64,000 bases of DNA from Allobosea sp. Root483D1 (lineage in GTDB: Bacteria; Pseudomonadota; Alphaproteobacteria; Rhizobiales; Beijerinckiaceae), in assembly GCF_001429505.1 (NCBI RefSeq), contig NZ_LMJW01000001.1, positions 870,606 to 934,605 of the forward strand, in the 5' to 3' direction. The notes under the pieces are model-generated. The model searched no databases and was not told the DNA's origin. It saw nothing but the letters and a program-made list of their open reading frames with translations. The position numbers and the translations under genes were made by a program. Below are positions 31,885 through 47,895 of this stretch, piece after piece. Each line of letters starts with the position of its first letter. Position 1 is the first letter of the stretch.

Positions 31885-32637
31885 TCAACCGTGGATCAGC
31901 ATGCCGCCATTGACGTCGATGACGGCGCCGGTGACGTAGGCCGAGAGATCGGAGGCGAGAAACAGGTAGATGCCCGCGACATCGCTGGCGTCGCCGAGCC
32001 GGCCGAGCGGGATGCCCTTGATGATGTCCTTGCGCATCTCGTCGGTCAGCTTGCCGCCGGTGATATCGGTCTGGATCAGGCCGGGGGTGACGCAGTTGAC
32101 GCGGATGCCATCCGGGCCGAATTCGCGCGCCATCGCCTTGGCGAGGCCGAGCACGCCCGCTTTGGCCGAGGAATAGTGCGGGCCGCCGAAGATGCCGCCG
32201 CCGCGCTGGGCCGAGACGGAGGACATGCAGGCGATCGCGCCCTGCTTCCTCGCCTGCATATGCGGGATGAAGACCTGGCTCAGGAACAGCACGCCCTTGC
32301 AGTTGATGTCCTGGACCCGGTCCCAGCTCGCCTCGTCGATCTCCAGAGTCTTCACCGGCTGGGTGACGCCGGCATTGTTGATCAGGATGTCGAGATGGCC
32401 GAAGGCGGCGATGACCTCATCCGCCGCCTTCTGGCAGGAGGCCTTGTCGGCAACGTCGCAACCGAGGCCGATATGCTGCGGGCCGAGCGCGGCCGCAGCC
32501 TGCTTCGCGGCGGTTTCGTCGATGTCGAGGATGGCGATGCGGGCGCCATGGGCGGCGAACAGCTTGGCGGTGGCGAGGCCGATGCCGCGCGCGCTGGCCG
32601 CACCCGAAATCGCGGCGGTCTTGTTCTGCAGGAGCAT
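31885..32637 (-). CDS. SDR family NAD(P)-dependent oxidoreductase
   Basis: 250 residues, a classical short-chain dehydrogenase. The glycine motif is GAASARGIGLA (about 11-21), followed by NNAGVT (about 87), the catalytic Ser in MSSVSAQRGG, YSSAKAG giving Tyr and Lys, and IDVNGGM near the end. ATG 32637 with GAGGGAT just upstream marks the true start. First gene of the leftward TRAP/transketolase operon, so it probably performs the first oxidation or a late reduction of the imported acid. Confidence 0.92.
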   Translation of the reverse strand: MLLQNKTAAISGAASARGIGLATAKLFAAHGARIAILDIDETAAKQAAAALGPQHIGLGCDVADKASCQKAADEVIAAFGHLDILINNAGVTQPVKTLEIDEASWDRVQDINCKGVLFLSQVFIPHMQARKQGAIACMSSVSAQRGGGIFGGPHYSSAKAGVLGLAKAMAREFGPDGIRVNCVTPGLIQTDITGGKLTDEMRKDIIKGIPLGRLGDASDVAGIYLFLASDLSAYVTGAVIDVNGGMLIHG

Positions 32638-32700
32638 TCCATCCCTCGATCGGCAAGTTCTTGTTGCCTGAGGGTGGCTCATGCTTCCGCGCATGAAAAA

Positions 32701-32713
32701 CGCAAAGATTGCG
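32701..32713. promoter_or_regulatory. Palindrome CGCAA-N3-TTGCG, candidate LysR binding site
   Basis: A perfect 13-bp dyad in the 139-base divergent region between the SDR gene and the LysR gene. LysR-family proteins bind interrupted dyads in such positions, so it probably controls both the TRAP operon and the regulator's own gene. Confidence 0.5.
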
Positions 32714-32776
32714 CTATGACATGAACTGCATTCACCTGTCCGAGATCCGGCCCAGGTGCATCCGAGGGAAAGAACC

Positions 32777-33664
32777 ATGCGACGCTTGCCGCTTTCCGCG
32801 CTCCAGGCTTTCGAGGCCGCGGCCCGGACAGGCTCGTTTCGCGCAGCCGGCGAGGAACTCAGCATTTCCCCGAGCGCGATCAGCCACGCAGTCCGCAAGC
32901 TCGAAATCCTGATGGGCGCCGCGCTGTTCGAGCGACAGAGCCGGGCCGTCCATCTCAACGTCGCGGGCGAGGCGCTGCTGCGCCATGTCGCGGCCGGCTT
33001 CGACGAGATGCGGCAGGGCATCGAGACCGTCGGCGCCCGCTCTGGCAACCTGCTGCGGCTGCATTGCGCTCCGTCGATGGCGGCGCAATGGCTGCTGCCG
33101 CGCCTGCGCGATCTCCTCGCCAAGCAGCCCGGGCTCGAAGTGCGGCTGGCGGCGGGGGTCGACTATCCGCAATTCGAGCATGACGAGTTCGACGCCGATA
33201 TCTGCTACGGGCCACCGCGGCAGGAAGGTCTGATCGTCATCCCGCTCGGCGAGGAGACCGTGACCCCGCTCTGCGCGCCGGAGCTCGCCGCCGGGATCAA
33301 CTCACCCAAGGACCTCCTCGGCGCGAAGCTGATCGAGAGCGACAACAAGCGGGTGCGCTGGACCAGCTGGTTCGGCGCCAACGACATCAGCCCGCCGGCT
33401 CCGCGCGGCTCGCGTTTCGATCGCTCGTTCATGGCGATCGCTGCAGCGGTTGACGGCCTCGGTGTCGCACTTGAGTCGACGCGACTCGCCGAGCGCGAGA
33501 TCGCCGACGGCCGGCTGGTGATGCCTCTCGCAGGACGGGCGCAGGACGTCCGCTATGTCGGCCACTATCTGGTCTTTCCGCGCGCGGCGAAGGCGCGCCG
33601 CTCGGTGCGCATGTTCACGCAATGGCTGACACAGGAATTGAACCTGCCGCCACCGAAGCTCTGA
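32777..33664 (+). CDS. LysR family transcriptional regulator (GcvA-like)
   Basis: 295 residues: an N-terminal winged helix LPLSALQAFEAAARTGSFRAAGEELSISPSAISHAVRKLE (given here only as FRAAGEELSISPSAIS) and a periplasmic-binding-like effector domain from about 90. The spacing and LPLSALQAFE opening match the GcvA subgroup. ATG 32777 follows GAGGGAAAG; an upstream GTG at 32756 is less likely. It is divergent from the TRAP/transketolase operon and its likely regulator. Confidence 0.9.
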   Translation: MRRLPLSALQAFEAAARTGSFRAAGEELSISPSAISHAVRKLEILMGAALFERQSRAVHLNVAGEALLRHVAAGFDEMRQGIETVGARSGNLLRLHCAPSMAAQWLLPRLRDLLAKQPGLEVRLAAGVDYPQFEHDEFDADICYGPPRQEGLIVIPLGEETVTPLCAPELAAGINSPKDLLGAKLIESDNKRVRWTSWFGANDISPPAPRGSRFDRSFMAIAAAVDGLGVALESTRLAEREIADGRLVMPLAGRAQDVRYVGHYLVFPRAAKARRSVRMFTQWLTQELNLPPPKL

Positions 33665-33684
33665 TGCATGCTTCCGGCGTGCCG

Positions 33685-34866
33685 TTAGCAGTAAATGATC
33701 GCTCCACGCGCGATCACCACGTTCGGGACCTGGCGTTCGACGACGACTTGCGGAAGATGCGTCGCCTCGAAGGCGATCAGATCGGCGCGCGCGCCTTCCC
33801 TGATCGCGCCGTCGCCGAGCCCTGCGAGCCGTGCCGGGATCGTCGTCACATGATCGAGCAGGGCCGCGATGTCCTCGTCGCGCCGCAGCCCGAAGCGATA
33901 GGTCGCGAGCATGGCCCGGTCGATCATGCCGATGACGGATGACGGGTTCCAGCAGTCGCGAATATTGTCGGAGCCGAAGAACACATCCACACCCAACTCA
34001 CGCAGCTTGGGGATGGGCGGGCAGCGGTCGCCACCCGGAATGCTCGACAGGATCGAGACTTTTGCCTCGCGCAAGGCTGTCGCGGTGGCATCCAGCCGGG
34101 CGGGGGCGGCATCGGCAAGGGCAAAGGCGTGGCTGATCGTCGTGCGCCCCTCAAGGCCGGCAGCGCTGGTCCGGGCCACGATATCGTCGATCTCGGCCAG
34201 GCCGATCTCTCCGCCATCGTGCAGATGGATGTCGAGGCCGCGGCCATAGCGCTCCGCCAGGCCGAAGATGATGTCCAGCTGGCCCTTCTGGTCGCCATCG
34301 ATGCCGACCGGATCGAGCCCGCCGATGAAATCCGCGCCCATGCGCAGAGCTTCCTGCAGGTACTCGGCGGCGACCGGGCAGGTCACGACACCGCTCTGTG
34401 GAAAGGCGACGATCTGGATCTGAACCCTGTCGGCCCAACGCTCGCGCAGCTCCAGCAGCTCCTTCAGCGTATCGAGCTTGGTCACCTCGTCGATGTCGAC
34501 ATGGGTCCGAAGACTGGTCGTGCCGAGGCGGAGCGCGGTTTCGAGCAGCATCTGTGCGCCTCGCTCCTCCAGCGAAGCGGGGTTGTCGCGGCGATGTTTC
34601 TTCTCGTCATCGATGCGCGCCCGGATCGATGGGGCCGAGCGATGCGGGCGCCAGGGCATGGCCATCAGGGTCTTGTCGAGATGGACATGCCCGTCAGTCA
34701 GGCCCGGCAGCACGAGCTGGCCGTTCAGGTCCAATTCCCGGCCGCGCTGCACCGGATCGCCCGCGGGCCGCACTGCGGCGATCCGGCCGCCAAAGATATC
34801 GATGGACACCAGACGGCCATCGGCAAGCCTGGCCCGGTTGAGGGTCAGATCGGCGGTCGCGGTCAT
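33685..34866 (-). CDS. Amidohydrolase I, cytosine-deaminase-like (CodA/AtzC type)
   Basis: 393 residues. Metal ligands by motif are GHVHLDK (His-x-His, about 62-64), DIHLHDGGE (about 200), TISHAF (about 235) and GSDNIRD (Asp about 295), with RTHVDID as the second shell. This pattern is that of cytosine deaminase and the N-isopropylammelide hydrolase AtzC. Such enzymes hydrolyse amino or amine groups from heterocycles. Its ATG overlaps the stop of amidohydrolase II by one base (TGATG). It is the last gene of the leftward operon, convergent with the LysR gene. Confidence 0.85.
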   Translation of the reverse strand: MTATADLTLNRARLADGRLVSIDIFGGRIAAVRPAGDPVQRGRELDLNGQLVLPGLTDGHVHLDKTLMAMPWRPHRSAPSIRARIDDEKKHRRDNPASLEERGAQMLLETALRLGTTSLRTHVDIDEVTKLDTLKELLELRERWADRVQIQIVAFPQSGVVTCPVAAEYLQEALRMGADFIGGLDPVGIDGDQKGQLDIIFGLAERYGRGLDIHLHDGGEIGLAEIDDIVARTSAAGLEGRTTISHAFALADAAPARLDATATALREAKVSILSSIPGGDRCPPIPKLRELGVDVFFGSDNIRDCWNPSSVIGMIDRAMLATYRFGLRRDEDIAALLDHVTTIPARLAGLGDGAIREGARADLIAFEATHLPQVVVERQVPNVVIARGAIIYC

Positions 34867-36446
34867 CACCGTCTCGCATTGAAGCTGCGGAAGCCCGCTT
34901 CGGGCTCGGGCATCGGCCAGTCCTGGTAGAAGGCCCGCAGATAGGGGTGGAGGGCCTTCGCGAGGAGGCGCCGTGCGGTTTCCGCCTCGGTCGGCGGACG
35001 CTGCAGTGACGTCTCGAGTTCGGCGAGCACGGCCTCCTTGTCGATGGAGGTCATCCTGCCGCTGCGAAGCACCGGCCGGCCATCGATCAGCACATCGCGG
35101 ATCATGCCGCACTTGGCTCTCTGGACGAGGGCGGAGACGATGTCGGTGTCGCCGTCGAGATAGGGCCGCGTCAGCAAGGCGCCGTCGACGACGACGATGT
35201 CGGCTGCCCTGCCGAGCTCGAGACGGCCGATCAGCTGGCCGAACCCGGTCGTGGCCGCGCCGTTCTCGGTCGCCATCCTGAAGATCTGGCGCTCGGAGAG
35301 CGGTTCGAAATCATGCCCGGGCGAGCGCTGGAGGTTCCAGGCGACACGCATCTCCTGCAGCATGTCGCGGTCATCGTTGATGCCCGCCTGGTCGATCCCC
35401 AGCGCGACCCTGATACCGGCCTGATGGAACTCCTTCACCGGCGCCACGCCGCTGCGAAGGCGCAGGCCCGAACTGGCATTGTGGCAGACGCAGGTTCCCG
35501 TGCTCGCGAGCAGATCGATGTCGGATTCGGTGCACCAGATGCCGTGGCCGATCGTCATGTTCGGCCCGAGCAGGCCGAGATCGGACAGATGCCGGACCGC
35601 GGTGCCCCCGGTGTCCTTCTGGGCGAAATGCCGCTGATAGGGCGTCTCCAGCAGATGCATGTGGAGGCCGACGCCGTAGCGCTCGGCCAGCTTTCGCTGC
35701 GCGACGAGACTCTCGACCGTGCACCATTGCAGGTTCGCCGGCGCCAGCTGCACGCAGTTCAGTCCGTCTTTGGCCGCGCCGAAGCTGTCATGCAGGGCCT
35801 CGAAATGCGCGGTGAGCTCCCCGATAGAGCTGGGCGATCCGGAGATCATGCCTTCGAGAGGCTCGCGAAGCTCGGAAGGTAGCGACGCCAGAAAAGCCTC
35901 CTGCGCGCCGTAGACGAACCTGTTCCGGTCGCGCCACATGAAGGAGTAGGAGGCGCGCATGCCGATGTCGCGATAGGCGCGCATGATCGCCTCGGGCGCG
36001 GCGAGCCAGCCCTCACGCGGCCCTGTCGGTCCGCCATGGATGTGCTGGACGGTGGTGACGCCCGATTCTACCATCTCGATGGCCGAGTAGAGCGTGTCGA
36101 GATACGGGTCGACCGTCCGCCAGCCGATGAAGCGCGGCAGCCAGAGTTCGAGCGGCAGGAAAGGCGTGCCGTGCTGGAGCGGGGTGAGCCCGGTGTGGTG
36201 ATGGGCGTTCACCAGCCCGGGCATGATGATGTCGCCAGCCGATCCGAAGACCTGCGCGCCGGGATGCGCCAGCGAGAGCTGCTCGAAGGAGCCGAATTCG
36301 GCAATGCGGCCGCCCGAGACCAGCAGCGCGCCGCCTGCATGCAGCTCTGCCCGATCGTCGCTGTCGACACCGCACAGGATGTGCCGCCCACGCACGATCA
36401 CCGGGCTGGCGCGATCCGCCAATTCTCGCGACGGCACCGTCGTCAT
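34866..36446 (-). CDS. Amidohydrolase II, chlorohydrolase/TrzN/8-oxoguanine-deaminase-like
   Basis: 526 residues, longer than the 440-470 usual for the group. Extra length lies in a C-terminal tail after the barrel (from about 450) and a mid-barrel insertion. Ligands are NAHHHTG, GLHMHLLETP, IGHGIWC and LGIDQAGIN, all intact, and FRMATENGAATTGF and LGRAADIVVVD are family-typical. It should be a metal-dependent deaminase or dehalogenase-type hydrolase. ATG 36446 overlaps the ATPase stop (ATGA), with GGAAGGA immediately before it. Confidence 0.85.
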   Translation of the reverse strand: MTTVPSRELADRASPVIVRGRHILCGVDSDDRAELHAGGALLVSGGRIAEFGSFEQLSLAHPGAQVFGSAGDIIMPGLVNAHHHTGLTPLQHGTPFLPLELWLPRFIGWRTVDPYLDTLYSAIEMVESGVTTVQHIHGGPTGPREGWLAAPEAIMRAYRDIGMRASYSFMWRDRNRFVYGAQEAFLASLPSELREPLEGMISGSPSSIGELTAHFEALHDSFGAAKDGLNCVQLAPANLQWCTVESLVAQRKLAERYGVGLHMHLLETPYQRHFAQKDTGGTAVRHLSDLGLLGPNMTIGHGIWCTESDIDLLASTGTCVCHNASSGLRLRSGVAPVKEFHQAGIRVALGIDQAGINDDRDMLQEMRVAWNLQRSPGHDFEPLSERQIFRMATENGAATTGFGQLIGRLELGRAADIVVVDGALLTRPYLDGDTDIVSALVQRAKCGMIRDVLIDGRPVLRSGRMTSIDKEAVLAELETSLQRPPTEAETARRLLAKALHPYLRAFYQDWPMPEPEAGFRSFNARR

Positions 36447-37555
36447 TCCTTCCGAAAGGCGCGGCAGTCCGCGGTTCGCCATCCCACGGTCACCGAAGCG
36501 CCACGGGCGATGCTGACCGGCACCTTCATCGGGTCGCCCTTCGCGATCAGTTCCTGGCCGCCGAGGCTGAAGACGACGCGCGTGGCTTCGCCGAGATAGA
36601 CCAGCCGCTCAACCTCGAGCGTGAAGGCATTTTCCGCCGCCCCGGGAGCAAGGCTGATGCGCTCGGGCCGCAGGCAGAGTACCGCCTGATCGCCGACCGC
36701 GAGCGGGTCGATGGCTGTCGCCGTCACGGCGATGTCCGGGGCCAGGCGAACGGTGACTGCATGCGGCGCGCTCGCGACGACCTCGCCTTCGAGCGTGTTG
36801 TTCTCGCCGATGAAACCCGCCACGAAGGCGTTCGCGGGGCTTTCGTACAGCTCCTCGGGAGGCGCAAGCTGCTGGATCCGGCCCTGATCGAACACCGCGA
36901 TCCTGTCGGACATGGTCAGGGCCTCTTCCTGATCATGCGTCACATAGACCATGGTGACGCCGAGACGCTCATGGATCTGCTTGAGCTCGTACTGCATGCG
37001 CTCGCGCAATTGCTTGTCGAGCGCGCCCAGAGGCTCGTCGAGCAGGATCAGCTCCGGCTCGAAGACGAGCGCGCGCGCCAGCGCGACCCGCTGCTGCTGG
37101 CCGCCGGAGAGCTGGGCCGGCATCCTCGCGCCGAACGGCCCGAGCTTGACCATGTCGAGCGCCGCGGTGACCCGTTGCGCGATCTCGGGCTCGGCCATCT
37201 TCCGCGCGCGAAGCGGATAGGCGACATTGTCGAAGACCGTCATGTGCGGGAAGAGCGCATAGTTCTGGAAGACCATGCCGATGCCCCGCTTGTAGGGCGG
37301 CAGGGCTGTGATCTCGCGTCCCTGCAAGGTGATCCGGCCGCTCGTCGGGGCTTCGAAGCCGGCGAGCATCATCAGGCTCGTGGTCTTTCCCGATCCCGAC
37401 GGCCCCAGCAGCGTCAGGAATTCACCGCGGGCGATGTCGAGGTTGAGGTCCTTCACGACGAGCGACTGCCCATCATAGCTCTTCTGGACCCGCGAGAAGC
37501 GAACCAGCGGCTCGCCGGCCGGCGCGGCGTCGGCCGCCATGGCTTGAATGCTCAT
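36443..37555 (-). CDS. ABC transporter ATP-binding protein, PotA type
   Basis: 370 residues: Walker A GPSGSGKT (about 52), Q-loop [13 protein letters not shown], signature [15 protein letters not shown], Walker [13 protein letters not shown] and the switch His in [10 protein letters not shown], then a TOBE domain from about 285. It energises the PotB/PotC-type permeases upstream in the operon. It lies between amidohydrolase genes with three bases to the one upstream. Confidence 0.95.
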
Positions 37556-37558
37556 GAG

Positions 37559-39028
37559 TTACTCCGCCCAGAGGGGCAAGGAAGGGGAGAAGCGCTCGGA
37601 CACGGTCCGGCCGAGGCTGTCGTGCCTGGGATGAGCGTCCCAGACCGCCTGGCTCGATGCAGCGACCTCGGCGAGAATCTCGTCCTCATCCGCGACGAGC
37701 AGGCGCCCGTCTTCGACCAGGACGTTGCCACCGACGATGACGGTGCTGACGCGATCGGGGCCTGCCAGGTGGACCAGCGCCCTGATCGGGTCCGGATTGG
37801 CCCCGAACGAAAGGGATCGGGGATCGACCAGGACGATGTCCGCCTTTGCCCCAGGCGCCAGGCGGCCGAGATCGGGACGGCCCAGCGCCGAAGCTCCGGC
37901 CAGGTTGCTGGCCCGGAAGACATCGGCGGCCGCGCCGGCCTCGAAGTTGCCGTCGGCGAGCTTGTTCATCAGCGATGCCATCCGCATCTCCGCGAACATG
38001 TCGAGCGGGTAGGTGTCGGTTGCGAGCGCGACGTTCACGCCGGCGCGGCGGAAGCGGTCGAAGCTTTCGAGCGCAATGCCGCGGCGCGCAAATGCGACCG
38101 GCGAATGCGCCACGTTCACGCCGGCCGAGCCGAGGATTTCGATGTCGTTCTCGACGGGATAGCCGATGGCGCTGTGGGTGGAGATATAGACGCAGTGCGC
38201 GAGGATCGTCTCGGCGTCGAGAACGCCCTCCTGCGCCAGGCATTGCACCGGCGTCAGGCCGGTCTGGATCATCGTCTCGTAGAATTCGCGGTGCTGTTCC
38301 ACGAAATGCAAGGTGAATGGAACGCCGAGCGATCTGGCGACCGCCTTGGCCTCCCGGCGCAGCTCCGGCGTGGAGAGATAGTACTCGTCGAGCGCAATCA
38401 GCCCGGTGACCAGGCCGTCGGTCGATGCCTGGAGCCGTTCGGCAAACCGGGCAGTCGCCTCAAGCGACTGGAAGCCTGCTTTCGCATCCAGTTCGCTCGA
38501 GACCTTGCCGTCCTCCTCGAGCCAGTAGCGTCCGCCTGTGACGACGGGGCTCCAGACCAGCCGGATGCCGAATTCCCGGGCGGTTTCGAGCATCAGTTCG
38601 CCGTCGCGCGGACCTACCGGGGCGAAGGCGACCACGGTCGTCACGCCGTTGCGCAGCAGCGAGGCGAAGCCGTAGCGCAGCGAGGCCCGTGCATCCTGCG
38701 GGGCGAGGAAGCCGGGGCGGCCGGCGCGGTTCTGCGGCAGGAAGTGCAGGAAGCTCGATCTGACGAATTCCCTGCGCCCGCCATCGACCAGAAGCCGCGG
38801 ACCTTCATGCGCGCCGATATGGGCGTGCGTGCTGATCTGTCCTGGTATCGCGATCAGTCCGCGTGCATCGATCCGGCGCTTGGCCTGGCCCGGGAAGTCC
38901 TTGCCGACCGCGACGATCCGATCGCCGGTGATGGCGATGGCGCCGCCTTCCAGATAGCGATGCTGCTCGCCGTCGAAGGCAATGATCAGGCCTCCGGAGA
39001 TGACGAGGTCGGCGATCTGCTCGGTCAT
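37559..39028 (-). CDS. Amidohydrolase III (chlorohydrolase-like, metal-dependent deaminase family)
   Basis: 489 residues. Metal-site motifs are ISTHAHIGAHEG (His-x-His, about 60), FTLHFVEQH (about 235), LAHCVYIS (about 270) and LATDTYPLD (Asp about 325), and LAPGAKADIVLVDP is the C-terminal family segment. It is clearly distinct from amidohydrolases I, II and IV, so the four are not recent copies. ATG 39028 overlaps the stop of the permease gene (ATGA); the open frame beyond it is a shadow of that permease. Confidence 0.85.
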   Translation of the reverse strand: MTEQIADLVISGGLIIAFDGEQHRYLEGGAIAITGDRIVAVGKDFPGQAKRRIDARGLIAIPGQISTHAHIGAHEGPRLLVDGGRREFVRSSFLHFLPQNRAGRPGFLAPQDARASLRYGFASLLRNGVTTVVAFAPVGPRDGELMLETAREFGIRLVWSPVVTGGRYWLEEDGKVSSELDAKAGFQSLEATARFAERLQASTDGLVTGLIALDEYYLSTPELRREAKAVARSLGVPFTLHFVEQHREFYETMIQTGLTPVQCLAQEGVLDAETILAHCVYISTHSAIGYPVENDIEILGSAGVNVAHSPVAFARRGIALESFDRFRRAGVNVALATDTYPLDMFAEMRMASLMNKLADGNFEAGAAADVFRASNLAGASALGRPDLGRLAPGAKADIVLVDPRSLSFGANPDPIRALVHLAGPDRVSTVIVGGNVLVEDGRLLVADEDEILAEVAASSQAVWDAHPRHDSLGRTVSERFSPSLPLWAE

Positions 39029-39861
39029 TGCTCTGCTCCTACGGGACGCCGCATCCGCTCCGAGCGTGCGCGCAGCCACTCCATCACCAGCATCAGGACG
39101 ACGGACACCATCAGCAGCACGACGGCGGCGGCGGTGATCGTGGGCGAGATGTTCTCGCTCACGCCGCTGAAGATCTGCCGCGGCAAGGTGCGCTGCTGCG
39201 GACTGGTGATGAACAGGGCGATGACGAGCTCGTCGAAGGATGTGACGAAGGCGAAGACGCTGCCCGACGCCACGCCGGGCGCGATCATCGGCAAGGTGAC
39301 GGTCCGGAGCGTGCGCAGCGGCGAGGCGCCCAGGCTCGCCGCGGCCCGGGGAAGGTTCGGATCGAAGCCCTGCAGCGTTGCCGAGACGGTGATCACCACG
39401 AACGGCAAGGCCAGCGCGACATGGGCCAGGATCAGGCCGATATAGGTGCCGACGAGATTGACCGCAGCGAAGAAGTAGAAGGCCGAGACCGCGATGATGA
39501 CGACTGGCACGGCGATCGGCGTGACCAGCAAGGCCATGATGAAGGGCTTGAGCCGGAACCGCGCGCCGTGAAGCCCGAGCGCGGCCATCGTCCCCAGGAC
39601 CGTCGCGACGATCGTCGTCACGATGCCGACGAACAGGCTGTTGAGCAGCGCTCCGGTCCATAGCGGGCTCGTGAAGAACTCCCGATACCATTGCAGCGAC
39701 CAGCCCGGGAGCGGGAACACCAGGAGCTGGCCCGCCGTGAACGACAGCGGAAACACGACGAAGATCGGCGCGACCAGGAAAACGAGGACCGCGTAAGTGA
39801 ACGCGCGCCCCCCGCTAAGAGCGAGCCGTTCAATGAGGGGGGTGGAAGATCCGGATCTCAT
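39025..39861 (-). CDS. ABC transporter permease, PotC type
   Basis: 278 residues with six predicted helices and the EAA loop LPRAAASLGASPLRTLRTV near 185. GSVFAFVTSFDELVIALF is a PotC-type segment. ATG 39861 lies one base after the PotB-type stop. An in-frame upstream extension is only read-through of that gene. Confidence 0.93.
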   Translation of the reverse strand: MRSGSSTPLIERLALSGGRAFTYAVLVFLVAPIFVVFPLSFTAGQLLVFPLPGWSLQWYREFFTSPLWTGALLNSLFVGIVTTIVATVLGTMAALGLHGARFRLKPFIMALLVTPIAVPVVIIAVSAFYFFAAVNLVGTYIGLILAHVALALPFVVITVSATLQGFDPNLPRAAASLGASPLRTLRTVTLPMIAPGVASGSVFAFVTSFDELVIALFITSPQQRTLPRQIFSGVSENISPTITAAAVVLLMVSVVLMLVMEWLRARSERMRRPVGAEQ

Positions 39862-39862
39862 C

Positions 39863-41125
39863 TCAACGCACCCGCAGGCGGTTGAAGCCGACGAGTTTGC
39901 CCAGGGCCAGGTAGATTGCCGCAACGACGATCAGCAGGAAGGCGCCGAGCGCCGAGGCCAGGCCCCAGTTCACCGCCGAATTGGTGAAATACGCGATGAA
40001 ATAGCCGATCATTTGGTCGCCCGGGCCGCCGACGAGCGCCGGAGTGACGTAGAAGCCGACCGAGAGGACGAAGACCAGCGTCCCGCCGGCCGCCACGCCC
40101 GGCAGGGTCAGGGGGAGGTAGACCGTCCGAAAGACGCGCAGCGGCGAGGCGCCGAGCGACGCGGCCGCGCGCAGATGGTTGCCGGAGACCCCCTTCATCA
40201 CGCTGTAGATCGGCAGGATCGCATAGGGGAGCAGGACGTGGACCATGGCGATGATCACGCCCGCCCGGTTGAACACCAGCGGCAAGGGCGAGCTGATGAT
40301 ACCCAGGGCCATCAGCGCCTTGTTCACGAGGCCCTCGTTCTGGAGGAGGATCACCCAGGCGGTGCTGCGCACCAGCAGCGATGTCCAGAACGGCACCAGG
40401 ACGAGCATCAGCATCCAGCTGGCCGCCCGCTTGCCGGCCCTCGCCATCACTGCGGCGACCGGAAAGCCGATCAGCAGGCACAGGGCAGTGACGGTCAGGC
40501 TCACGGACAGGGTTCGTCCGTAGAGATCGATGAAAATGCGCTGCTCCGGCGCGACGCGGCGCAGCTCTCCCTCGGGCGATTTGTGGAGGTCCAGCGCCGT
40601 GAGGAGATAGAAGTCCGTCAGGCGCCCGGACTGCTGGTGAAGCACGCCCCAGAGGGCCGGATCCGCCCATTGCTTGTCGATCGCGATCAGTGCGTCTTTT
40701 GCGGACGCCCCTTCCGCGATCGGCAGGCGCCGCGCCGTCTTGGTGAGAAGGCCACGCGCCCCGGGCAGGGCGTAGTTGAGCCGCCTCCCGATCAGCCCAA
40801 GCGAAGGCTGGCCGCGGATCGCGTTCAGGTCCGCCGCGATCGCGGCGAAAGCCGCTTCATCGGGCTCGCCCTGGCCCGACCAGCTCTGCATGACCTCCGC
40901 GGTGCGCGGCAGGTAGGTCTGGATCTCGGGATTGTCGACGCTCCTGAACATGAAGAGAGCGAGCGGAAGGACGAAGAACAGCGCGGTGAAGATCACGCTC
41001 GGAGCAAGCAGCGCCAGCATCTTGATGAGATGCTTCCGCTCCGAAGCGCTCACCTGGGCGGCGAGGCCCGGGTTCTCGACCGCGACGGAGACCGATCGGG
41101 GTGAAGCGGATGCCATGGCCGTCAT
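39863..41125 (-). CDS. ABC transporter permease, PotB type, with enlarged periplasmic loop
   Basis: 420 residues against roughly 280-300 for ordinary PotB. After TM1 (about 40-60) comes a hydrophilic stretch of roughly 140 residues (YLPRTAEVMQ to RIFIDLYGR) before TM2; the rest is a normal permease with EAA loop LRAAASLGASPLRVFRTV. Similar long-loop permeases occur in this subfamily. The loop may dock the two alternative binding proteins (inference). It overlaps the binding-protein stop by four bases. Confidence 0.92.
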   Translation of the reverse strand: MTAMASASPRSVSVAVENPGLAAQVSASERKHLIKMLALLAPSVIFTALFFVLPLALFMFRSVDNPEIQTYLPRTAEVMQSWSGQGEPDEAAFAAIAADLNAIRGQPSLGLIGRRLNYALPGARGLLTKTARRLPIAEGASAKDALIAIDKQWADPALWGVLHQQSGRLTDFYLLTALDLHKSPEGELRRVAPEQRIFIDLYGRTLSVSLTVTALCLLIGFPVAAVMARAGKRAASWMLMLVLVPFWTSLLVRSTAWVILLQNEGLVNKALMALGIISSPLPLVFNRAGVIIAMVHVLLPYAILPIYSVMKGVSGNHLRAAASLGASPLRVFRTVYLPLTLPGVAAGGTLVFVLSVGFYVTPALVGGPGDQMIGYFIAYFTNSAVNWGLASALGAFLLIVVAAIYLALGKLVGFNRLRVR

Positions 41126-42183
41126 TGCGCGACGAAGGTCGCGAAGCGTTGACGGATGGCGTCGCCGTTATCGAGCCAGAAATTGATGTATTGCTGGCCC
41201 GCCTGCATCATGCCGTTGCGTGATTTCGGATCCGGGAGGCTGGCGCGGCGCGCCTCGCTGAGGAGCGGGCTGGCGTCGGCATTGGCCGGAGGATTGCCTA
41301 GCGCCTCCATGTGCCGGGCCTGTACGGGCGCCGAAAGCTGATAGGCGATCAGGCGGATCGCCGCCTCCTTCCGCGGTGAGCCCTTCATGACACCCAGGAA
41401 GATGAGGGCGTTGGTGTAGCCGGCATCCCAGACGATGCGCAGCTTGCGGTTGTTGGAACTGTTGGCTGCGTTGACACGGCCGAGCCAACCGTAACCCATC
41501 GAGACCTCGCCGGTGAGCAGCAACTGCATCGACTCGTCACCGCTCTTCCACCATTTGATGTGAGGCTTGAGCTCGGCGAGCTTCTTGAAAGCGCGGTCGA
41601 CACCGCCTGGCGCCGTGAGGACCTTGACGACATCGGATGGCGGCACGCCGTCCGCCATGAGCGCGATCTCGAGCGTCTGGTCCGGCTGGTACATCAAAGC
41701 GCGCTTGCCGGGAACCTTGGCGACGTTCCAGAAATCGGCCCAGCTCTTGGGTGCCGCATCACCCTTCAACCTGTCGGAGTCGAAGACGAGAGCGCCTGGG
41801 GAGGCGAGGTAAGGCGCACCGCATTCGCCGAAGCCGCCCACGGCCTCGAACGCCTCGGGCCTGGCGTATTTCGACCAGTCGATCTTTTCGAGGAGACCTT
41901 CTTCGCAGCCGGCGACCTCGTTGATGGGATTGAGGCTCACCGCGTCCCAGACGAGATTGCCCGTCTCGACCTGCGTGCGCAGCCGCGCCAGCTCCTGATT
42001 GAACGTGTCGACCCTGATCTGGACCCCGGTCTCGGCCGTGAAGGGTTCGAAGACCGTTTTCCGCTGGACGTCGCCTGGCTGGCCGCCCTGGGTGACGATC
42101 GTCACCGTTTCGGCGCCGAGCGCTTGCTGCTGTGCGAAGGTGAGGACGATCGCAGTCGCGATCGCAGCATGAACCGGCCGCAT
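41122..42183 (-). CDS. ABC transporter substrate-binding protein, PotD-like (copy 2)
   Basis: 353 residues with a Sec leader (cleavage near GAETV, ~23). It is paralogous to the binding protein encoded just upstream: the same length and an identical block of about 30 residues around VDRAFKKLAELKPHIKWW, but different leader, middle and C-terminal third. The family binds polyamines and other organic cations or amides in the periplasm. It is co-transcribed with PotB/PotC permeases. Confidence 0.92.
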   Translation of the reverse strand: MRPVHAAIATAIVLTFAQQQALGAETVTIVTQGGQPGDVQRKTVFEPFTAETGVQIRVDTFNQELARLRTQVETGNLVWDAVSLNPINEVAGCEEGLLEKIDWSKYARPEAFEAVGGFGECGAPYLASPGALVFDSDRLKGDAAPKSWADFWNVAKVPGKRALMYQPDQTLEIALMADGVPPSDVVKVLTAPGGVDRAFKKLAELKPHIKWWKSGDESMQLLLTGEVSMGYGWLGRVNAANSSNNRKLRIVWDAGYTNALIFLGVMKGSPRKEAAIRLIAYQLSAPVQARHMEALGNPPANADASPLLSEARRASLPDPKSRNGMMQAGQQYINFWLDNGDAIRQRFATFVAQ

Positions 42184-42209
42184 TGGTAGCCTCCCTGGAA
42201 TTGTGAGTG

Positions 42210-43271
42210 CTATTGCGCGGCGAAGGTGATGAAGCGCTGGAGCAGCGCGTCGCCGTTGTTGAGCCAGAAATCGAGATACACCGTCCCGCTCTGCAGCGAG
42301 GCTAGCTTCATGTGCCCGGCGGGCAGCGTGGCGCGCTCCGCTTCGGTCAGGAAGGCGTAGGCCTTCGCGTTCACCGGCGCATAGTCGATGGCGCGTGCGA
42401 AGTTCGCCTGCGGCTCCGGCGACGATGCGAGCTTGATGAAGTCGATCGCCAGATCCCTCTTCTTGGTGCCCTTCATGACCGCGATCATCTGGCTGCCGGA
42501 AACGTGCCCCGCGCCGAACTCGATCTTGAGCTGCCGGTTATTGGCGCGGTTCGCCATCCCGACCCGGCCATTCCAGGCGAAGGTCATGACGACCTCGCCT
42601 GTGAGAATGGCCTGCATGGATTCGTCGCCACTCTTCCACCATTTGATGTGCGGCTTGAGCTCAGCGAGCTTCTTGAAGGCCCGGTCGACGCCTCCTGGCG
42701 CCGAGAGAACCTTCATCACGTCAGCCGGGGGCACGCCGTCCGCCATGAGCGCGACCTCCAGGGTCTGCTCGGCGCGATAGAGGAGGCCCCGCTTGCCGGG
42801 AAACTTCTTCACATCCCAGAAATCGGCCCATGTCTTCGGTGTTTCGCCGCCACCGTAGCGCTTCGAGTCGTAGACAAGGCCGCCAGAGACGAAATTGTTC
42901 GGCAGGCCGCATTGGCCGAAGCCGCCGACATCGGCGTAGTCCTTCGGATCGAGATGTTTCGACCAGTCGATGCGTTCGAGCAGACCCTCGTCGCAGGCCG
43001 TGGCCTCGTTGATCGCCGTGACGCTGACGACGTCCCAGACGAGATTGCCGGTCTCGACCTGAGAGCGAATCTTCGCGAGTTCCTGGCTGAACTGATCGTC
43101 GACGACCGTATGCCCGGTCCTGGCGGTGAACGGCTTGTAGTAGGCCTCACGATAGCCGGCGCCGGCAGCGCCGCCATTGTTGGCGACCGTGATGGAATCC
43201 GCGGACGCGACTTGCGGCGCGATCAGCCCGATCAGCGCCACGCTCAGGCTGAGCAGCTTCCGGTTCGCCAT
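42210..43271 (-). CDS. ABC transporter substrate-binding protein, PotD-like (copy 1)
   Basis: 353 residues with a Sec leader (ANRKLLSLSVALIGLIAP, cleavage after ASA at ~23). ATG 43271 was chosen because GGAGG lies nine bases upstream and the leader begins there. It shares about half its residues with copy 2, including ETGNLVWD, EGLLE(R/K)IDWSK and MADGVPP. First gene of the leftward transport/amidohydrolase operon, facing the GntR control region. Confidence 0.92.
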   Translation of the reverse strand: MANRKLLSLSVALIGLIAPQVASADSITVANNGGAAGAGYREAYYKPFTARTGHTVVDDQFSQELAKIRSQVETGNLVWDVVSVTAINEATACDEGLLERIDWSKHLDPKDYADVGGFGQCGLPNNFVSGGLVYDSKRYGGGETPKTWADFWDVKKFPGKRGLLYRAEQTLEVALMADGVPPADVMKVLSAPGGVDRAFKKLAELKPHIKWWKSGDESMQAILTGEVVMTFAWNGRVGMANRANNRQLKIEFGAGHVSGSQMIAVMKGTKKRDLAIDFIKLASSPEPQANFARAIDYAPVNAKAYAFLTEAERATLPAGHMKLASLQSGTVYLDFWLNNGDALLQRFITFAAQ

Positions 43272-43297
43272 GATGACAACCTCCGTTCCCCGTTGGA

Positions 43298-43317
43298 TTG
43301 GTTGCATATTTGGTTGC
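43298..43317. promoter_or_regulatory. Direct repeat TTGGTTGC x2 near the copy-1 binding-protein start
   Basis: TTGGTTGC at 43298-43305 and 43310-43317, 12 bases apart, about 27 bases upstream of the leftward operon's start codon. The same core forms the arms of the inverted repeat beside the GntR gene, so it is probably one half-site of the GntR operator. Confidence 0.55.
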
Positions 43318-43381
43318 GATTGAGCTCGCACGCTGGTTGTTGGGCATACTTCAATATCCGTTCATGTCGCATGTCAATTGC

Positions 43382-43398
43382 CAATTTCGACGAAATTG
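43382..43398. promoter_or_regulatory. 17-bp perfect palindrome CAATTTCGACGAAATTG
   Basis: Perfect odd palindrome (central A at 43390) in the middle of the 189-base divergent region. A TTGACT -35-like hexamer begins at 43400. It could be an operator of the FCD-type GntR protein or of a second regulator. Confidence 0.55.
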
Positions 43399-43433
43399 CT
43401 TGACTTGAGAGATAGATTTTAGGCAACTGAACT

Positions 43434-43455
43434 CAACCAAATCAGAAATTGGTTG
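43434..43455. promoter_or_regulatory. Inverted repeat CAACCAA-N8-TTGGTTG abutting the GntR start
   Basis: The 7-bp arms are perfect complements. The right arm ends five bases before the GntR ATG (43461), where a repressor would block its own expression. No Shine-Dalgarno sequence fits between arm and start, so the transcript may be leaderless or poorly translated. Confidence 0.55.
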
Positions 43456-43460
43456 CAATT

Positions 43461-44168
43461 ATGACTCGCCAGCGCATCACGAACGAGATTAGATCGGCCC
43501 TGGAAGAGGGCATCGAGGCGATGATGAGCGAGGCGGCAGATCGGACGGAGGCAAGGCTGCCGACGGAACGGGAGCTCGCCGAGCGCTTTCAGGTCAGCCG
43601 GCACGCGATCCGACAGGCCCTGGAACGGCTTGAAGCGAAGGGATCGCTTTGGCGCCATGTCGGGCGCGGCACCTTCCGCGGCCGTCGCAGCGAGGCCGAG
43701 CCGACCACGGCCGACGTCGCGGCCTTCTGCAGTCCCCGGCACATCTACGACGCGCGCCGGATGCTCGAGCCGTCGCTCGCCTCACTCGCGGCCCTGAACG
43801 CCACCCCCGCGCAGATCGCCGAGATCCAGGCGATCTGCCGGCGCTGCGCCGCCGCGCGGAACATGGATGACTACGAGGTCTTCGACGAGGCCTTCCATCG
43901 AGCGATCGCGCAGGCCTGCGGCAACCCGCTCGCGGCGGAGCTGTTCGAGACCGTCAATCAGGCCCGCAAGAAGATCATCTGGGGGGCGATGCGCCGCGCC
44001 GTGCTTCGGCCCGAGCGCCGGGCCTTCTTCAGCGAGCAGCACCGCGAGATCGTGGACGCGATCGCCAAGCGCGATGCGCATGCCGCCTGGCAGGCGGTGA
44101 TGTCCCACATGGAAACGGTCGCGCAGACCTACGAGGCCTTGCGGCCGGGTGAACCGTTCATCGTCTAG
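43461..44168 (+). CDS. GntR family regulator, FadR subfamily (FCD domain)
   Basis: 235 residues: a winged helix (ARLPTERELAERFQVSRHAIRQAL, given in part as ERELAERFQVSRHAIRQAL, about 30-50) and an all-helical FCD effector domain with metal-site residues in FDEAFHRAIAQ and SEQHREIVDAI. The winged helix requires the ATG at 43461. It sits between the two arms of the amidohydrolase system and is the obvious local controller; its effector is probably an organic-acid-like pathway intermediate. Confidence 0.92.
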   Translation: MTRQRITNEIRSALEEGIEAMMSEAADRTEARLPTERELAERFQVSRHAIRQALERLEAKGSLWRHVGRGTFRGRRSEAEPTTADVAAFCSPRHIYDARRMLEPSLASLAALNATPAQIAEIQAICRRCAAARNMDDYEVFDEAFHRAIAQACGNPLAAELFETVNQARKKIIWGAMRRAVLRPERRAFFSEQHREIVDAIAKRDAHAAWQAVMSHMETVAQTYEALRPGEPFIV

Positions 44169-44187
44169 GGTAAAGAGGACTGGAAAA

Positions 44188-45597
44188 GTGGAGCTAGAGA
44201 ACGTCGACCTCGCCGTGCGCGGTCGCATCGTCACCATGGACAAGGACAGGACCGTCATCGATGACGGCATGGTCGTCTCGCGGGCCGGCCGGATCCTGGC
44301 TGTCGGTCCGCGGCAGGAGATCGCCTCGCGCTTTCGGTGCGACCATGTCGCAGGCGACGCCCACTCGATCATCATGCCGGGCTTCATCGACGCCCATACG
44401 CATTGCACCCAGTGCTTCGTCCGCTCGCTCACCAGCGGCGAGCTGCCGATGATCCCGCGCATCTACAGCCCGGCACAGCGCTCGCTGAACCCGGAGCAGG
44501 CCGCCACGACCGTCCGGCTCATCGCCGCCCAGCTGCTGCGCTCGGGCATCACCACGATGTGCGAAGGCACGTTGAACCCGGCGCACGAGCCGGCGATCGT
44601 CCAGGCGATCGAGGAGACCGGAATCCGTTGCGTGATGGCGCGCGGTGCGGCGGATCAGGACTTCCACCATGCCGCGCTCTACAGCCAGATCACCGATCGC
44701 TCCTGGTACAAGGCGCGGGAGGGCCAGGCGGAAAAGGAACTCCTCGCGACCGAGGCGTTCCTGCAGCGGCATCCGGCGCGCGGCGACGGGCTCATCCGGG
44801 GCGCCGTCAATGTCTCGGCGCTCCTGAACTTCTCCGAAGCCTACTTCAAGGGCGGTGCCGAGCTGGCCCGCCGGCACGATACGACCATGCAGGTCCATAT
44901 CGGCCGGGATCGCGAGGAGGTCGAGTTCTGTCTCTCCGCGTTCGGCCGCCGCCCGGTGGAGCGGCTCGCCGATCTCGGCGTCATCGACGAGCATCTGGTC
45001 GCGGTCCATGCCGTGCTGGCGAGCGAAAAGGAGATCGAGCTCCTGGCCCGCGGCGGAGCCGGCCTCGCGCATTCCCCGGTGGAATGCGTCGCCAATCTCA
45101 ACGCCATTCCCAACCTGCCGCGCTTCAGGGCGTCCGGTATCCGCGTCGCGCTCGGATGCGACAACCAGGCCAACGACATCTTCGTGAACATGCGGGCCGC
45201 CTGGCTCATCCACGGCGCCAAATGGGGGATGTCGGCCTATGATGCGGAGTTCCTGTCCGCTGGCGAGATCATCGACATGGCGACCATCGAGGCCGCCTCG
45301 GTGCTGAGATGCGACGACCTGATCGGCTCGCTGGAAGCCGGCAAGGCGGCCGACATCGTCGTGCTCGACGGGAGCGGGCCGCACATGATGTCTTCGCAGC
45401 ATCTGTCGAGCGAGCTGCTTCGCTACGCCTCGCGGGCCGAGGTCAAGACGACCATCGTCGCCGGCAGGGTCCTGTATTCCGACGGGGAGTTCGCGACGAT
45501 CGACATCGAAAGGCTGCGCGAGGAAGCCACGGCCGGCGCCAGCTTCGTCAGCGATCTCGTCGCCGAGCGTCGTTATCGCCCGCTGCCAGCCTGGTAG
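44188..45597 (+). CDS. Amidohydrolase IV (chlorohydrolase/MTA-deaminase-like)
   Basis: 469 residues from GTG 44188, chosen because GAGGA lies eight bases upstream. Metal motifs are DAHTHCTQ (about 70), TMQVHIGRD (about 235), VAVHAVLAS (about 275) and ALGCDNQAND (Asp about 325); AGKAADIVVLDG is the C-terminal signature. The Glu-containing loop usual after the third ligand is altered to GRDREE. It is co-transcribed with GntR (20-base gap) and opposite the other three amidohydrolases. Confidence 0.86.
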   Translation: MELENVDLAVRGRIVTMDKDRTVIDDGMVVSRAGRILAVGPRQEIASRFRCDHVAGDAHSIIMPGFIDAHTHCTQCFVRSLTSGELPMIPRIYSPAQRSLNPEQAATTVRLIAAQLLRSGITTMCEGTLNPAHEPAIVQAIEETGIRCVMARGAADQDFHHAALYSQITDRSWYKAREGQAEKELLATEAFLQRHPARGDGLIRGAVNVSALLNFSEAYFKGGAELARRHDTTMQVHIGRDREEVEFCLSAFGRRPVERLADLGVIDEHLVAVHAVLASEKEIELLARGGAGLAHSPVECVANLNAIPNLPRFRASGIRVALGCDNQANDIFVNMRAAWLIHGAKWGMSAYDAEFLSAGEIIDMATIEAASVLRCDDLIGSLEAGKAADIVVLDGSGPHMMSSQHLSSELLRYASRAEVKTTIVAGRVLYSDGEFATIDIERLREEATAGASFVSDLVAERRYRPLPAW

Positions 45598-45633
45598 TCC
45601 ATCCGTGCGAGCCATGCGACCGTCGCCCCTCCA

Positions 45634-46827
45634 GTGATCGCATGGCCGGCCTCGGGAGCTGCAATGTATCTTGCGGTCGTGCTGATCGGCCTGAATCTCA
45701 GGCCCTTCCTCACCGGTGTGGCTCCCCTGGCTTCGGACATCCACGCGGCGACGGGCCTCAGCGATCAGGGCATGTCCCTGTTCGCCAGCCTGTCCATGGC
45801 CGCAATGGGCTTATGCGCCTTCCTCGGCCCCGTCATTCAAAGGCGGATCGCCGAAGATCGCTGGATCATCATCGGGGCTCTCTCCGCTCTCAGCCTCTTT
45901 TCCGGCTGGCGGATGCTGACCGACAGCGGCAGCGTCCTGATCGCCAGCACGACGCTTTGCGCCTTGTGCGTCGCACTCATCCAGGCGGTTTTTCCGCGGC
46001 GCATCAAGGCGCATTTCCTGGGCAGGACACCCTTCGCCATGGGGCTGTTCTCGGCCTGCCTGATGGGTGGCGGCGCGGTAGGCGCGCAATTGTCGCCGCT
46101 GATCGCCGAAGCGAGCGGCAACTGGCGGCTCGGTCTCGGCTGGATGGCGCCCTTTGCCGCCATGGCGGCAGCCGTGTCCGTCTTCCACCTGCCGGCCAAC
46201 GGCGGAGGTCCTGGCGGCACCCTGGGACTTCGGGACCTGGTGTCGAGGCCGCGAGCCTGGTTGCTCATGGTTGGCTTCGGGATCGTCAACGGCAGCTATG
46301 CCTCGATCGTCGCCTGGCTCGCGCCCTATTATCAGCGGATGGGATGGGGCAGCACCGATAGCGGTGGCCTCCTCGCCGTCCTGGCCGCCTGCCAGGCGAT
46401 CGCTGCCCTTGCGATCCCCATGCTGGCCTCCCGGGGGCTGGATCGACGGCCCTGGATCGTCCTCTCGCTCGGTCTCCAGATCCTCGGGTTCTGCGGCCTC
46501 GCATTTGCTCCCGATCTCCACCCCGCCCTCTGGGCGATCGTGATCGGCATCGGAATGGGAGGCGCGTTCGCGCTGTTCATGATCGTCGCGCTGGATCACC
46601 TGGAGAACCCGGTCGACGCGGGCGCCCTTTCGGCCTTCATGCAGGGCGGCGGCTTCCTGATCGCCGGCCTGTTTCCGTGGATCGTCGCCGCCCTGGGCGA
46701 ACGGGCCGGCGATCTTTCCTCTGGCTGGCTCGTCCATGTCGGGGCGATTGGCCTGGTCGCCGTCATGGCCTGCCGCTTCCGGCCCGAGGGCTATGCGCTC
46801 GCGCTGCGCGGCATCCGCCGCCAATAG
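45634..46827 (+). CDS. MFS transporter, CynX/NimT-like
   Basis: 397 residues with about 12 predicted membrane helices, including LIGLNLRPFLTGVAPLASDI as helix 1, the hallmark opening of the cyanate/nitroimidazole subgroup. Charged loop motif RRIAEDR follows helix 2. GTG 45634 gives the longest form; ATG 45664 has a better GGGAG site and may be the true start. It probably moves a small product or substrate of the amidohydrolase pathway. Confidence 0.88.
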   Translation: MIAWPASGAAMYLAVVLIGLNLRPFLTGVAPLASDIHAATGLSDQGMSLFASLSMAAMGLCAFLGPVIQRRIAEDRWIIIGALSALSLFSGWRMLTDSGSVLIASTTLCALCVALIQAVFPRRIKAHFLGRTPFAMGLFSACLMGGGAVGAQLSPLIAEASGNWRLGLGWMAPFAAMAAAVSVFHLPANGGGPGGTLGLRDLVSRPRAWLLMVGFGIVNGSYASIVAWLAPYYQRMGWGSTDSGGLLAVLAACQAIAALAIPMLASRGLDRRPWIVLSLGLQILGFCGLAFAPDLHPALWAIVIGIGMGGAFALFMIVALDHLENPVDAGALSAFMQGGGFLIAGLFPWIVAALGERAGDLSSGWLVHVGAIGLVAVMACRFRPEGYALALRGIRRQ

Positions 46828-46871
46828 CGACCAGAACGCGGGCTGGGCCGTTTCGCGGCTCACAATAGGCG

Positions 46872-47774
46872 CTATCCGGATCTGGAATTCAGGCTTTCGA
46901 TCCGCAGGAAGCGAATGAACTCTTCGACGAGCCTGGTGCGCTGGCTGTGCGAGGGGAACAGCACGCCGAAATTATAGGGCACGTCGGGCTCGAACCGGCG
47001 CCAAACAAGACCCTTTGCGGTGAAGGCATTGGCGGTGAAGCGGTCGGTGATCGTGACGCCCACACCATTTGCCACCAGTTCGCAAGCCACCGCGGCGATG
47101 GGCGTGTCGACGCGGATGTCCGGCACGGAGCCGGCATCGTCCAGAGCCCGCTGCAGCGGCAAGTGGGCGAAGCTGTCCCGCCCCTTGCCGACGAATGCCA
47201 ACCCATGCAGGTCGCGGGGCGTTATCACCTCACGCGCCGCGAGCGGATGGTCCGGCAACATCACGCAAACCCCGATCGCAGGATCGAAAAGCTCGATGTC
47301 GACGCCCGGCTTTTCCATCGGGAGCATCGCGAAGCCGATGTCGAACTGCCGCGTCGAAACCCAGGAGGCGATCGTCTCGGAGCGCTGGACCTGGAGCGCG
47401 GCAGCGACCCCACGGTGCTCCTTCAGGAAGCGAGCGAGCGCCATCGGCAGGAACTGGTGAGCCAGCGCCGGCATGCTGACGATCCTGAGCTGCTCGACGC
47501 GCCGCTCCTTGATCTGGGCGGCCCGCTGGGCGATGCGCTCCAGCCCGACGAAGCTGCGCTCGACCTCGTCCTGCAGGGCGAGCGCCTCCGCCGTCGGCCA
47601 GCTCCGCCCGTCCGCACGCGTGAACAGCGCGAAGCCCAGGCGCTCCTGCAATTCCTTCAGCAGCCGGGAGATCGATGGCTGCGAGGTGCGCAGGAGGCGC
47701 GCGGCCTGGGTGAAGCTGCCGACATGCAGCACGGCATTGAAGGCTTCCCAGTGCTTGTGACCGATCTGCGTCAA
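46872..47774 (-). CDS. LysR family transcriptional regulator
   Basis: 300 residues from TTG 47774, with GGAG nine bases upstream; a longer TTG start at 47837 exists but extends into the control region. Winged helix GSFTQAARLLRTSQPSISRLL (in part QAARLLRTSQPSISRLL, about 20-40), effector domain from ~90. It resembles regulators of opine and arginine-derivative uptake such as OccR/NocR in helix sequence style; I do not claim orthology. It is divergent from the ABC/oxidase operon at 47963 and its likely activator. Confidence 0.88.
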   Translation of the reverse strand: MTQIGHKHWEAFNAVLHVGSFTQAARLLRTSQPSISRLLKELQERLGFALFTRADGRSWPTAEALALQDEVERSFVGLERIAQRAAQIKERRVEQLRIVSMPALAHQFLPMALARFLKEHRGVAAALQVQRSETIASWVSTRQFDIGFAMLPMEKPGVDIELFDPAIGVCVMLPDHPLAAREVITPRDLHGLAFVGKGRDSFAHLPLQRALDDAGSVPDIRVDTPIAAVACELVANGVGVTITDRFTANAFTAKGLVWRRFEPDVPYNFGVLFPSHSQRTRLVEEFIRFLRIESLNSRSG

Positions 47775-47895
47775 ATCAAGGCACTCCGGGACCGGAAGCT
47801 TCAGAGTTCGGGCGAAGCGTACCCCGGCGGGCAGCAATGCTCGCCGGGCGCCTGGCCATGCTCATATCAAATCCGGATCGATCAATCCATATTTC

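Follow-up and report, generated by a model that had tools for sequence, protein, structure and literature searches.

The described systems closest to the locus reported here are importers on the one hand and amidohydrolases on the other. Among the importers are the PotABCD polyamine transporters and the systems served by the γ-aminobutyric acid (GABA)/opine solute-binding proteins (SBPs) of Agrobacterium, namely the GABA receptor Atu4243, MotA (mannopine) and AgtB (agropinic acid). In the GABA-binding protein Pf622, the excerpted text of PMC12999171 gives W9, T13, F100, Y102, W202, R205, D228 and Y264 as the GABA site, with D228 binding the amine. The amidohydrolases are AtzC, the N-isopropylammelide isopropylaminohydrolase (2qt3, 6nbo) of the CodA cluster; the GuaD/AtzB cluster with guanine deaminase, 8-oxoguanine deaminase, NdmH and Vcz; and AtzA (4v1x) with AHS/NatAM (6sj0-6sj4). 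Guanine-type deaminases require a Gln after strand 1 (excerpts of PMC13054789 and PMC12828455), which in poNdmH is Q74 and holds the substrate carbonyl (PMC13054789), and in AHS His253 is a zinc ligand and Ala256 lies in the pocket (excerpt of PMC7204872). Here, we describe an eleven-gene block in a 64,000-nucleotide stretch of Allobosea sp. Root483D1 (contig NZ_LMJW01000001.1, 870,606-934,605; hereafter the window, whose numbering is used for all its features). The block consists of an ATP-binding cassette (ABC) importer with two SBPs, a GntR-FCD regulator, a major facilitator superfamily (MFS) transporter and four amidohydrolases, AH1 to AH4, and is a predicted uptake-and-hydrolysis catabolic island, of a known kind with a new composition. 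Judging from sequence and fold comparisons, there is an even chance that the GABA/opine-class importer and the hydrolases would together import and stepwise hydrolyse a carboxylate-bearing N-heterocycle, such as a cyclic amidine, guanidine or ureide.

Gene order and the conserved core

On the minus strand the order of transcription is SBP2 (42210..43271), SBP1 (41122..42183), permease B of PotB/PotH type (PermB, 39863..41125), permease C (PermC, 39025..39861), AH3 (37559..39028), a PotA-type ATPase with a TOBE domain (36443..37555), AH2 (34866..36446) and AH1 (33685..34866). The plus strand has GntR-FCD (43461..44168), AH4 (44188..45597) and the CynX/NimT-related MFS gene (45634..46827), with AH4 across the GntR promoter from the importer operon. 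Likely start codons are at 34866 (or a GTG at 34869) for AH1, 36446 for AH2, 39028 for AH3, 39861 for PermC, 43271 for SBP2, 43461 for GntR and 44188 for AH4. Genes overlap by TGATG at AH2/AH1 and by ATGA at ATPase/AH2, PermC/AH3 and SBP1/PermB.

These four junctions agree with the overlaps reported in a first-pass annotation made from the sequence alone, and Pfam and NCBIfam bear out its inventory of four amidohydrolases (PF01979/PF07969), an ABC transporter, a GntR and a CynX-like MFS protein in 33685-46827, including the fourth amidohydrolase, AH4, across the GntR control region beside the MFS gene. The MFS protein scores below both CynX cut-offs (TIGR00896, 213.8 bits vs 406; NF007256, 304.3 vs 312; NCBIfam). 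The enzymes also come from different branches as supposed, given that AH2, AH3 and AH4 are 25-26% identical to each other and that AH1 has no BLASTP match to them at E 1e-3. Two details change: of the three amidohydrolase genes said to be inserted among the ABC subunit genes only AH3 is, AH2 and AH1 being downstream of the ATPase gene, and the one transporter comes with a pair of SBPs, paralogues at 54% identity.

Scanning named genomes with an alignment of AH3 yielded 21 loci, and the core was counted from gene searches within these plus a further locus, L082; absence of AH1, AH4 or the MFS gene in a relative's locus refers to the locus DNA examined. The order AH4-GntR divergent from SBP2-(SBP1)-PermB-PermC-AH3-ATPase was found in nine loci (the window, L024, L026-L031 and L082), with SBP1 missing in L031. 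At two further loci contig ends cut the cluster, L025 beginning and L083 ending inside it, and both match the core order where covered. AH3 also lies between PermC and the ATPase in L025, L037, L039 and L041, and in the last three the arrangement SBP-permease-permease-AH3-ATPase is retained even though AH3 is 36-40% identical. When the longest-contig sizes of genomes with the 120 listed AH4 and 120 listed AH3 homologues were compared, 17 matched exactly, whereas 80 shifted sizes gave 0.65 matches on average and never more than 2; this measure of co-occurrence is indirect, as it matches sizes and not names. On this comparative evidence AH3 and AH4 are a two-enzyme core shared by relatives, with additions.

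The co-conservation that the first-pass annotation had proposed as a check therefore holds for AH3, AH4, GntR and the importer, together in nine loci, but the four-enzyme set is not obligate: of the eight core-carrying relatives, five (L026-L030) have AH3 and AH4 as their sole core amidohydrolases, which speaks against one fixed four-enzyme pathway. Its broader idea of a stepwise pathway for a nitrogen-rich compound fits as shared hydrolysis fed by one importer, because AH3 stays inside the transporter operon even at 36-40% identity and the core recurs intact, but no fixed four-enzyme route follows from it.

Neighbours of AH4 in relatives include a LamB/YcsF-like protein, named by eye, at L083 (9693-10454; G536) and a gamma-glutamyltranspeptidase at L030 (1482-3083), which hints, though weakly, at glutamyl or pyroglutamyl groups. 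Among the AH3 relatives, the Primorskyibacter locus L032 (64-11446) has two tandem AH3-family genes and, close by, stretches resembling AH2 and AH1 and an ABC binding protein of GsiB type; the relative at L043 (3375-4849), in a metagenome-assembled genome (MAG), was matched as two pieces; and P0232, of 764 residues, includes a TctC (PF03401) domain and may be a binding-protein/enzyme fusion or a gene-call artefact.

Importer class and active sites

The importer is of PotABCD type in its ATPase, which passes the NCBIfam potA subfamily cut-off, and in its PotB/PotH-like PermB. It differs from PotABCD systems in the amidohydrolase gene between the permease and ATPase genes and in SBP2, which resembles GABA/opine binders more than PotD/SpuD. 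The SBP2 model (mean predicted local distance difference test score, 90.4) has its best PDB folds in Atu4243, a Bradyrhizobium SBP, MotA and AgtB, ahead of polyamine binders, and its closest solved folds and sequences fall in the GABA/opine class, with the Bradyrhizobium SBP 4i1d, whose ligand is unstated, ranking alongside. NCBIfam PotD scores are 28.9 bits for SBP2 and 44.4 for SBP1 against a cut-off of 582, and with GABA/opine binders ranking first we rejected polyamine uptake. In pairwise alignment Pf622 W202 and R205 correspond to W233 and R236 of SBP2, the latter unchanged in all 21 aligned SBPs, so that the carboxylate-binding Arg and the adjacent Trp of the Agrobacterium proteins are kept. 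The Asp contacting the GABA amine, D228 in Pf622, is instead Gln261 in SBP2 and Ile in SBP1, and here two SBPs lie beside one permease pair. Because R236 is kept and the Asp replaced, the ligand likely has a carboxylate and not a GABA-like amine. From these comparisons we assign the importer to the GABA/opine class and not to the polyamine systems.

Metal-ligand positions are present in all four amidohydrolases, as the first-pass annotation had noted, although AH4 lacks the deaminase catalytic Glu. AH2 (HHHxGL, HxxE, H, D) has H82/H84, H264, E267, H301 and D352 in 120 of 120 aligned sequences, and AH3 (HAHxGA, HxxEQ, H, D) has H68/H70, H241, E244, H278 and D338 in 118 of 118, the residues expected of the deaminase branch of the amidohydrolase superfamily (AHS III for AH2). 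Both share the family and the Glu/His/Asp machinery of the GuaD/AtzB cluster, in clades of their own. They differ from it at the substrate-holding Gln after strand 1, which AH2 lacks (Leu in 117/120; HMMER aligns a gap against Gln) and AH3 may lack (Ala in 99/118 with MAFFT; a gap with HMMER; Gln at the next residue in 56/118). The nearest NCBIfam model of AH3 is NF004801 (PRK06151 'chlorohydrolase'), below cut-off.

AH4 (HTHCTQ) has Arg240 at the position of the HxxE Glu in 115 of 115 aligned sequences, within an invariant HxxRDREE (HxxRDREEVE in AH4 itself), while the metal-ligand His are found in 114-115 of 115 and Asp325 in 114 of 115; a GCD motif is also invariant. Since HxxRDREE replaces HxxE throughout, AH4 is probably not an ordinary deaminase. 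Deamination by all four enzymes, one form of the pathway first proposed, is hence not supported for AH4. Its closest sequence and Foldseek matches are AtzA and AHS/NatAM, at only 26-28% identity; AtzA keeps HxxE, whereas AH4 and AHS lack the Glu, and both AtzA and AHS differ from AH4 in its invariant HxxRDREE and GCD motifs. AH1 (HVHLDK, FPQSG, HLHD, SHA, SDNIRDCW) is AtzC/PRK05985-type, with 263 bits to 6nbo and 186 bits to 2qt3. It shares HxHxDK, (F)xQSG, HxHD, SHA and SDNIRDxW with AtzC, and its segments FPQxG (whose Q we take to be the strand-3 Gln), HxHD and SDNIRDxW place it in the AtzC/CodA cluster. This likeness is one of sequence, and no s-triazine ring-cleavage gene was found in the source genome.

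Further hints at the substrate come from AH2 relatives, 47-48% identical at L069-L071. They occur at the end of an ABC operon with a 2-oxoglutarate-Fe(II) oxygenase (L069), beside SIS and PfkB proteins with SBPs (L070), and in an operon with SIS, PfkB and BtpA proteins, two polysaccharide-deacetylase-family proteins and an Asp/Glu/hydantoin racemase (L071, 2962-10793). The L071 genes appear to form another, independent catabolic operon. The source genome has seven hydantoin-racemase-family matches, none in the block. The hints, including those from L033 and L024 given below, diverge; taken together they suggest a ring with hydrolysable C-N bonds and a carboxylate, perhaps of the hydantoin or imidazolone type. 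A hydroimidazolone or Amadori substrate was rejected as a firm assignment, given that only 47%-identical AH2 relatives lie near SIS/PfkB or hydantoin-racemase genes and that a search of open-licence PMC text gave no paper.

Accessory slot, promoter and probable acquisition

The position after the ATPase gene behaves as an accessory slot. It is empty of an amidohydrolase in five of the nine core loci (L026-L030), occupied by AH2 in the window and the congener locus L024 (73% identical), and occupied by other enzymes in L031 and at L084, the opposite side of L082; their identity to AH2 is 33% and 31%, respectively, and to one another 29%. The L031 enzyme is not the AH2 orthologue, because the same genome has a 47% AH2 relative outside the slot. 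In a tree of 40 sequences AH2, AH3 and AH4 form separate well-supported groups, and the L031 enzyme falls outside the AH2 group, paired with one from Primorskyibacter (100/99). That two further lineages carry other amidohydrolases in the slot, besides the recurrence of AH2 in L024, hints at selection for an additional, third hydrolysis. AH1 and the MFS gene were not found in the locus DNA of the eight other core loci; AH1 relatives (37-46%) occur elsewhere in the genomes of L024, L028, L029 and L031.

The divergent promoter carries operator-like repeats. TTGGTTGC was found in eight of nine divergent promoters, the window and L024 having three copies apiece; the loci are related, with L027 and L028 nearly identical. 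Two TTGGTTGC sites lie upstream of SBP2 (43297..43318), and an inverted repeat, CAACCAA-N8-TTGGTTG, lies just upstream of the GntR start (43434..43456). The 64 kb contain two copies of ATTGGTTGC, both in this promoter, against 0.19 expected, and none of 100 shuffles had two. With at most one mismatch TTGGTTGCA occurs in the 64 kb only at 43298, 43310 and 43449, all in the GntR/SBP2 promoter, the last inside the palindrome. GntR would repress both divergent operons through the putative TTGGTTGC sites and be released by the substrate or an early product.

The eleven genes were likely gained as a unit (33684..46889). In congener G851, DNA homologous to 27812-33683 at 91.5% identity ends just short of the AH1 stop codon and homology resumes at 46890 (89%) on a different contig; in three more congeners (L087-L089) it ends at 33674, 33651 and 33640. 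The interval between the G851 break points holds exactly the eleven genes, and because homology stops at 33683 and resumes at 46890 they are read as one likely acquired 13.2-kb block. At E 1e-90 AH4 was found in 2 of 67 genomes at genus level, in 3 of 397 at order level and in 2 of 385 at class level, counts that each include the source genome, and this rarity marks the block as a rare accessory one. A plasmid search gave no match for AH4 at 1e-50 and 36 records for AH3, all below 60% identity.

To the right, 46890-54020 holds another ABC transporter, accompanied by an oxidoreductase of the DAO family, as a conserved separate module in congeners (89% identical in G851, 78% in G792 and 76% in G840). 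It was rejected as part of the pathway (46.9-54.0 kb), since it stands separately in two congeners devoid of AH4, G851 and G792, and lies on another contig than AH4 in G840. Left of the block, ARAGORN calls a 92-nt tRNA-Arg (gcg) at 23300-23391 (minus strand) inside a long opposite-strand frame (22491-24446), which may be a false positive.

Competing readings and the proposed pathway

The cluster could instead deaminate a purine, pyrimidine or pterin-like base of the guanine, isocytosine or pterin type, removing successive exocyclic amines. The isocytosine deaminase Vcz (7ww2) is among the nearest PDB sequences of both AH2 and AH3, and a xanthine-dehydrogenase-type subunit follows AH2 in L024. 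In L033 (3694-11470; Drouetiella hepatica, a cyanobacterial MAG) AH2 and AH3 homologues (49% and 48%) stand side by side, preceded by a lipoprotein, a double ATPase and two permeases that read by eye as an ABC operon of BMP/Nup nucleoside type. We nonetheless consider base deamination unlikely, given that the guanine-type Gln is Leu in AH2 and mostly Ala in AH3 (not firmly, for the alignment reasons above), that the SBPs of the window are GABA/opine-class, and that AH4 lacks HxxE. The adjacency in L033 also bears on the possibility that the genes are neighbours with no common substrate, AH3 and AH4 being a catabolic core and AH2, AH1 and the MFS gene additions for other compounds. That possibility draws on the absence of AH1 and the MFS gene from the other core loci and on AH2 relatives (45-48%) beside other ABC transporters at L069-L072. 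It appears improbable to us, because AH2 recurs in L024, the slot is refilled in two further lineages, AH1 and AH2 overlap operon stop and start codons, and L033 has homologues of AH2 and AH3 next to each other.

An s-triazine pathway assembled from AtzA/TrzN-, AtzB- and AtzC-like enzymes would account for the AtzC-like AH1, for AtzA as the best PDB match of AH4 (138 bits) and for TrzN among the best matches of AH3, and triazines were among the substrates first proposed. However, cyanuric-acid hydrolase (PF09663) is absent from six of the nine core-carrying genomes, including the source genome (G000, 0 matches), with one match in each of the other three; the SBPs keep the carboxylate-binding Arg, whereas s-triazine herbicides have no carboxylate; and the AtzA segment aligned with AH4 has the HxxE that AH4 lacks. 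With no AtzD/TrzD (PF09663) found in the source genome the full route was rejected, triazine mineralisation is disfavoured, and the s-triazine reading as a whole is very improbable. Equally doubtful is that AH4 might be a ring-forming, cyclodehydrating enzyme like NatAM in a cluster that modifies a natural product and degrades nothing. AHS (6sj0) is indeed the second-best PDB match of AH4, AHS chains are among its best Foldseek matches, and AHS likewise lacks the HxxE Glu in our alignment and in the excerpt of PMC7204872 (His253, Ala256). Against this, no ligase, non-ribosomal peptide synthetase or acyl-transfer gene is among the eleven, and the two-SBP importer and GntR-FCD point to uptake and catabolism.

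Several observations also weigh against uptake and hydrolysis of a carboxylated N-heterocycle by a block of this make-up. The proposed substrate class derives from pairwise-aligned SBP residues and the context of 47%-identical AH2 relatives. AH4 was not found in 13 of the 21 AH3 loci (L032-L044, AH3 at most 53% identical), which limits the AH3/AH4 pairing to the nearer AH3 group, and neighbouring catabolic genes vary among relatives, so that no downstream step is fixed. The L084 slot enzyme lies on a long branch beside the AH2 group (89/70) and shares an AH2-like HMHLLET segment, and for these reasons it may be a distant AH2 relative instead of a replacement. In the promoter, TTGGTTGC is absent from L031, the full palindrome is in only three of nine promoters, and TTGGTTGCA with one mismatch is not over-represented (3 found vs 5.14 expected), only its placement being notable. 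The G+C content at third codon positions is little different inside the block (0.854, 11 genes) and outside (0.884, 48 other genes), so that acquisition is argued from the homology break and the distribution; an ordinary rearrangement in G851 could also have caused that break, because the two flanks are not contiguous there.

We propose that the importer would bring in a carboxylate-bearing N-heterocycle, on which AH2 and AH3 would act by deaminase-type C-N hydrolysis with a metal-bound water and Glu/His/Asp. AH4 would hydrolyse a different bond, by ring opening or on a carboxylate-bearing intermediate, AH1 would attack an N-substituted or amide C-N bond in the manner of AtzC, and the ammonia, amine and amino-acid-like acid so produced would feed nitrogen metabolism. 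The first-pass annotation knew of no described pathway with this gene order, and none was found among the titles and abstract starts listed from open-licence PMC text, which leaves other print uncovered. A tentative extension, which we hold with less than even confidence, is that AH4 founds an amidohydrolase group in which the Glu has become an invariant Arg-Asp-Arg-Glu-Glu, that with AH3 it is the fixed core of an undescribed carboxylated-N-heterocycle pathway, and that the slot is a plug-in site swapped to suit compound variants. If true, this would be a compact catabolic system in which ligands found by screening the two binding proteins would directly identify the compound, and AH4 would take amidohydrolase superfamily chemistry past the HxxE deaminases. 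Xenobiotic routes such as that for atrazine are believed to have arisen by modular growth, and a slot that is empty, filled or refilled by lineage would be a natural case of such modular pathway growth.

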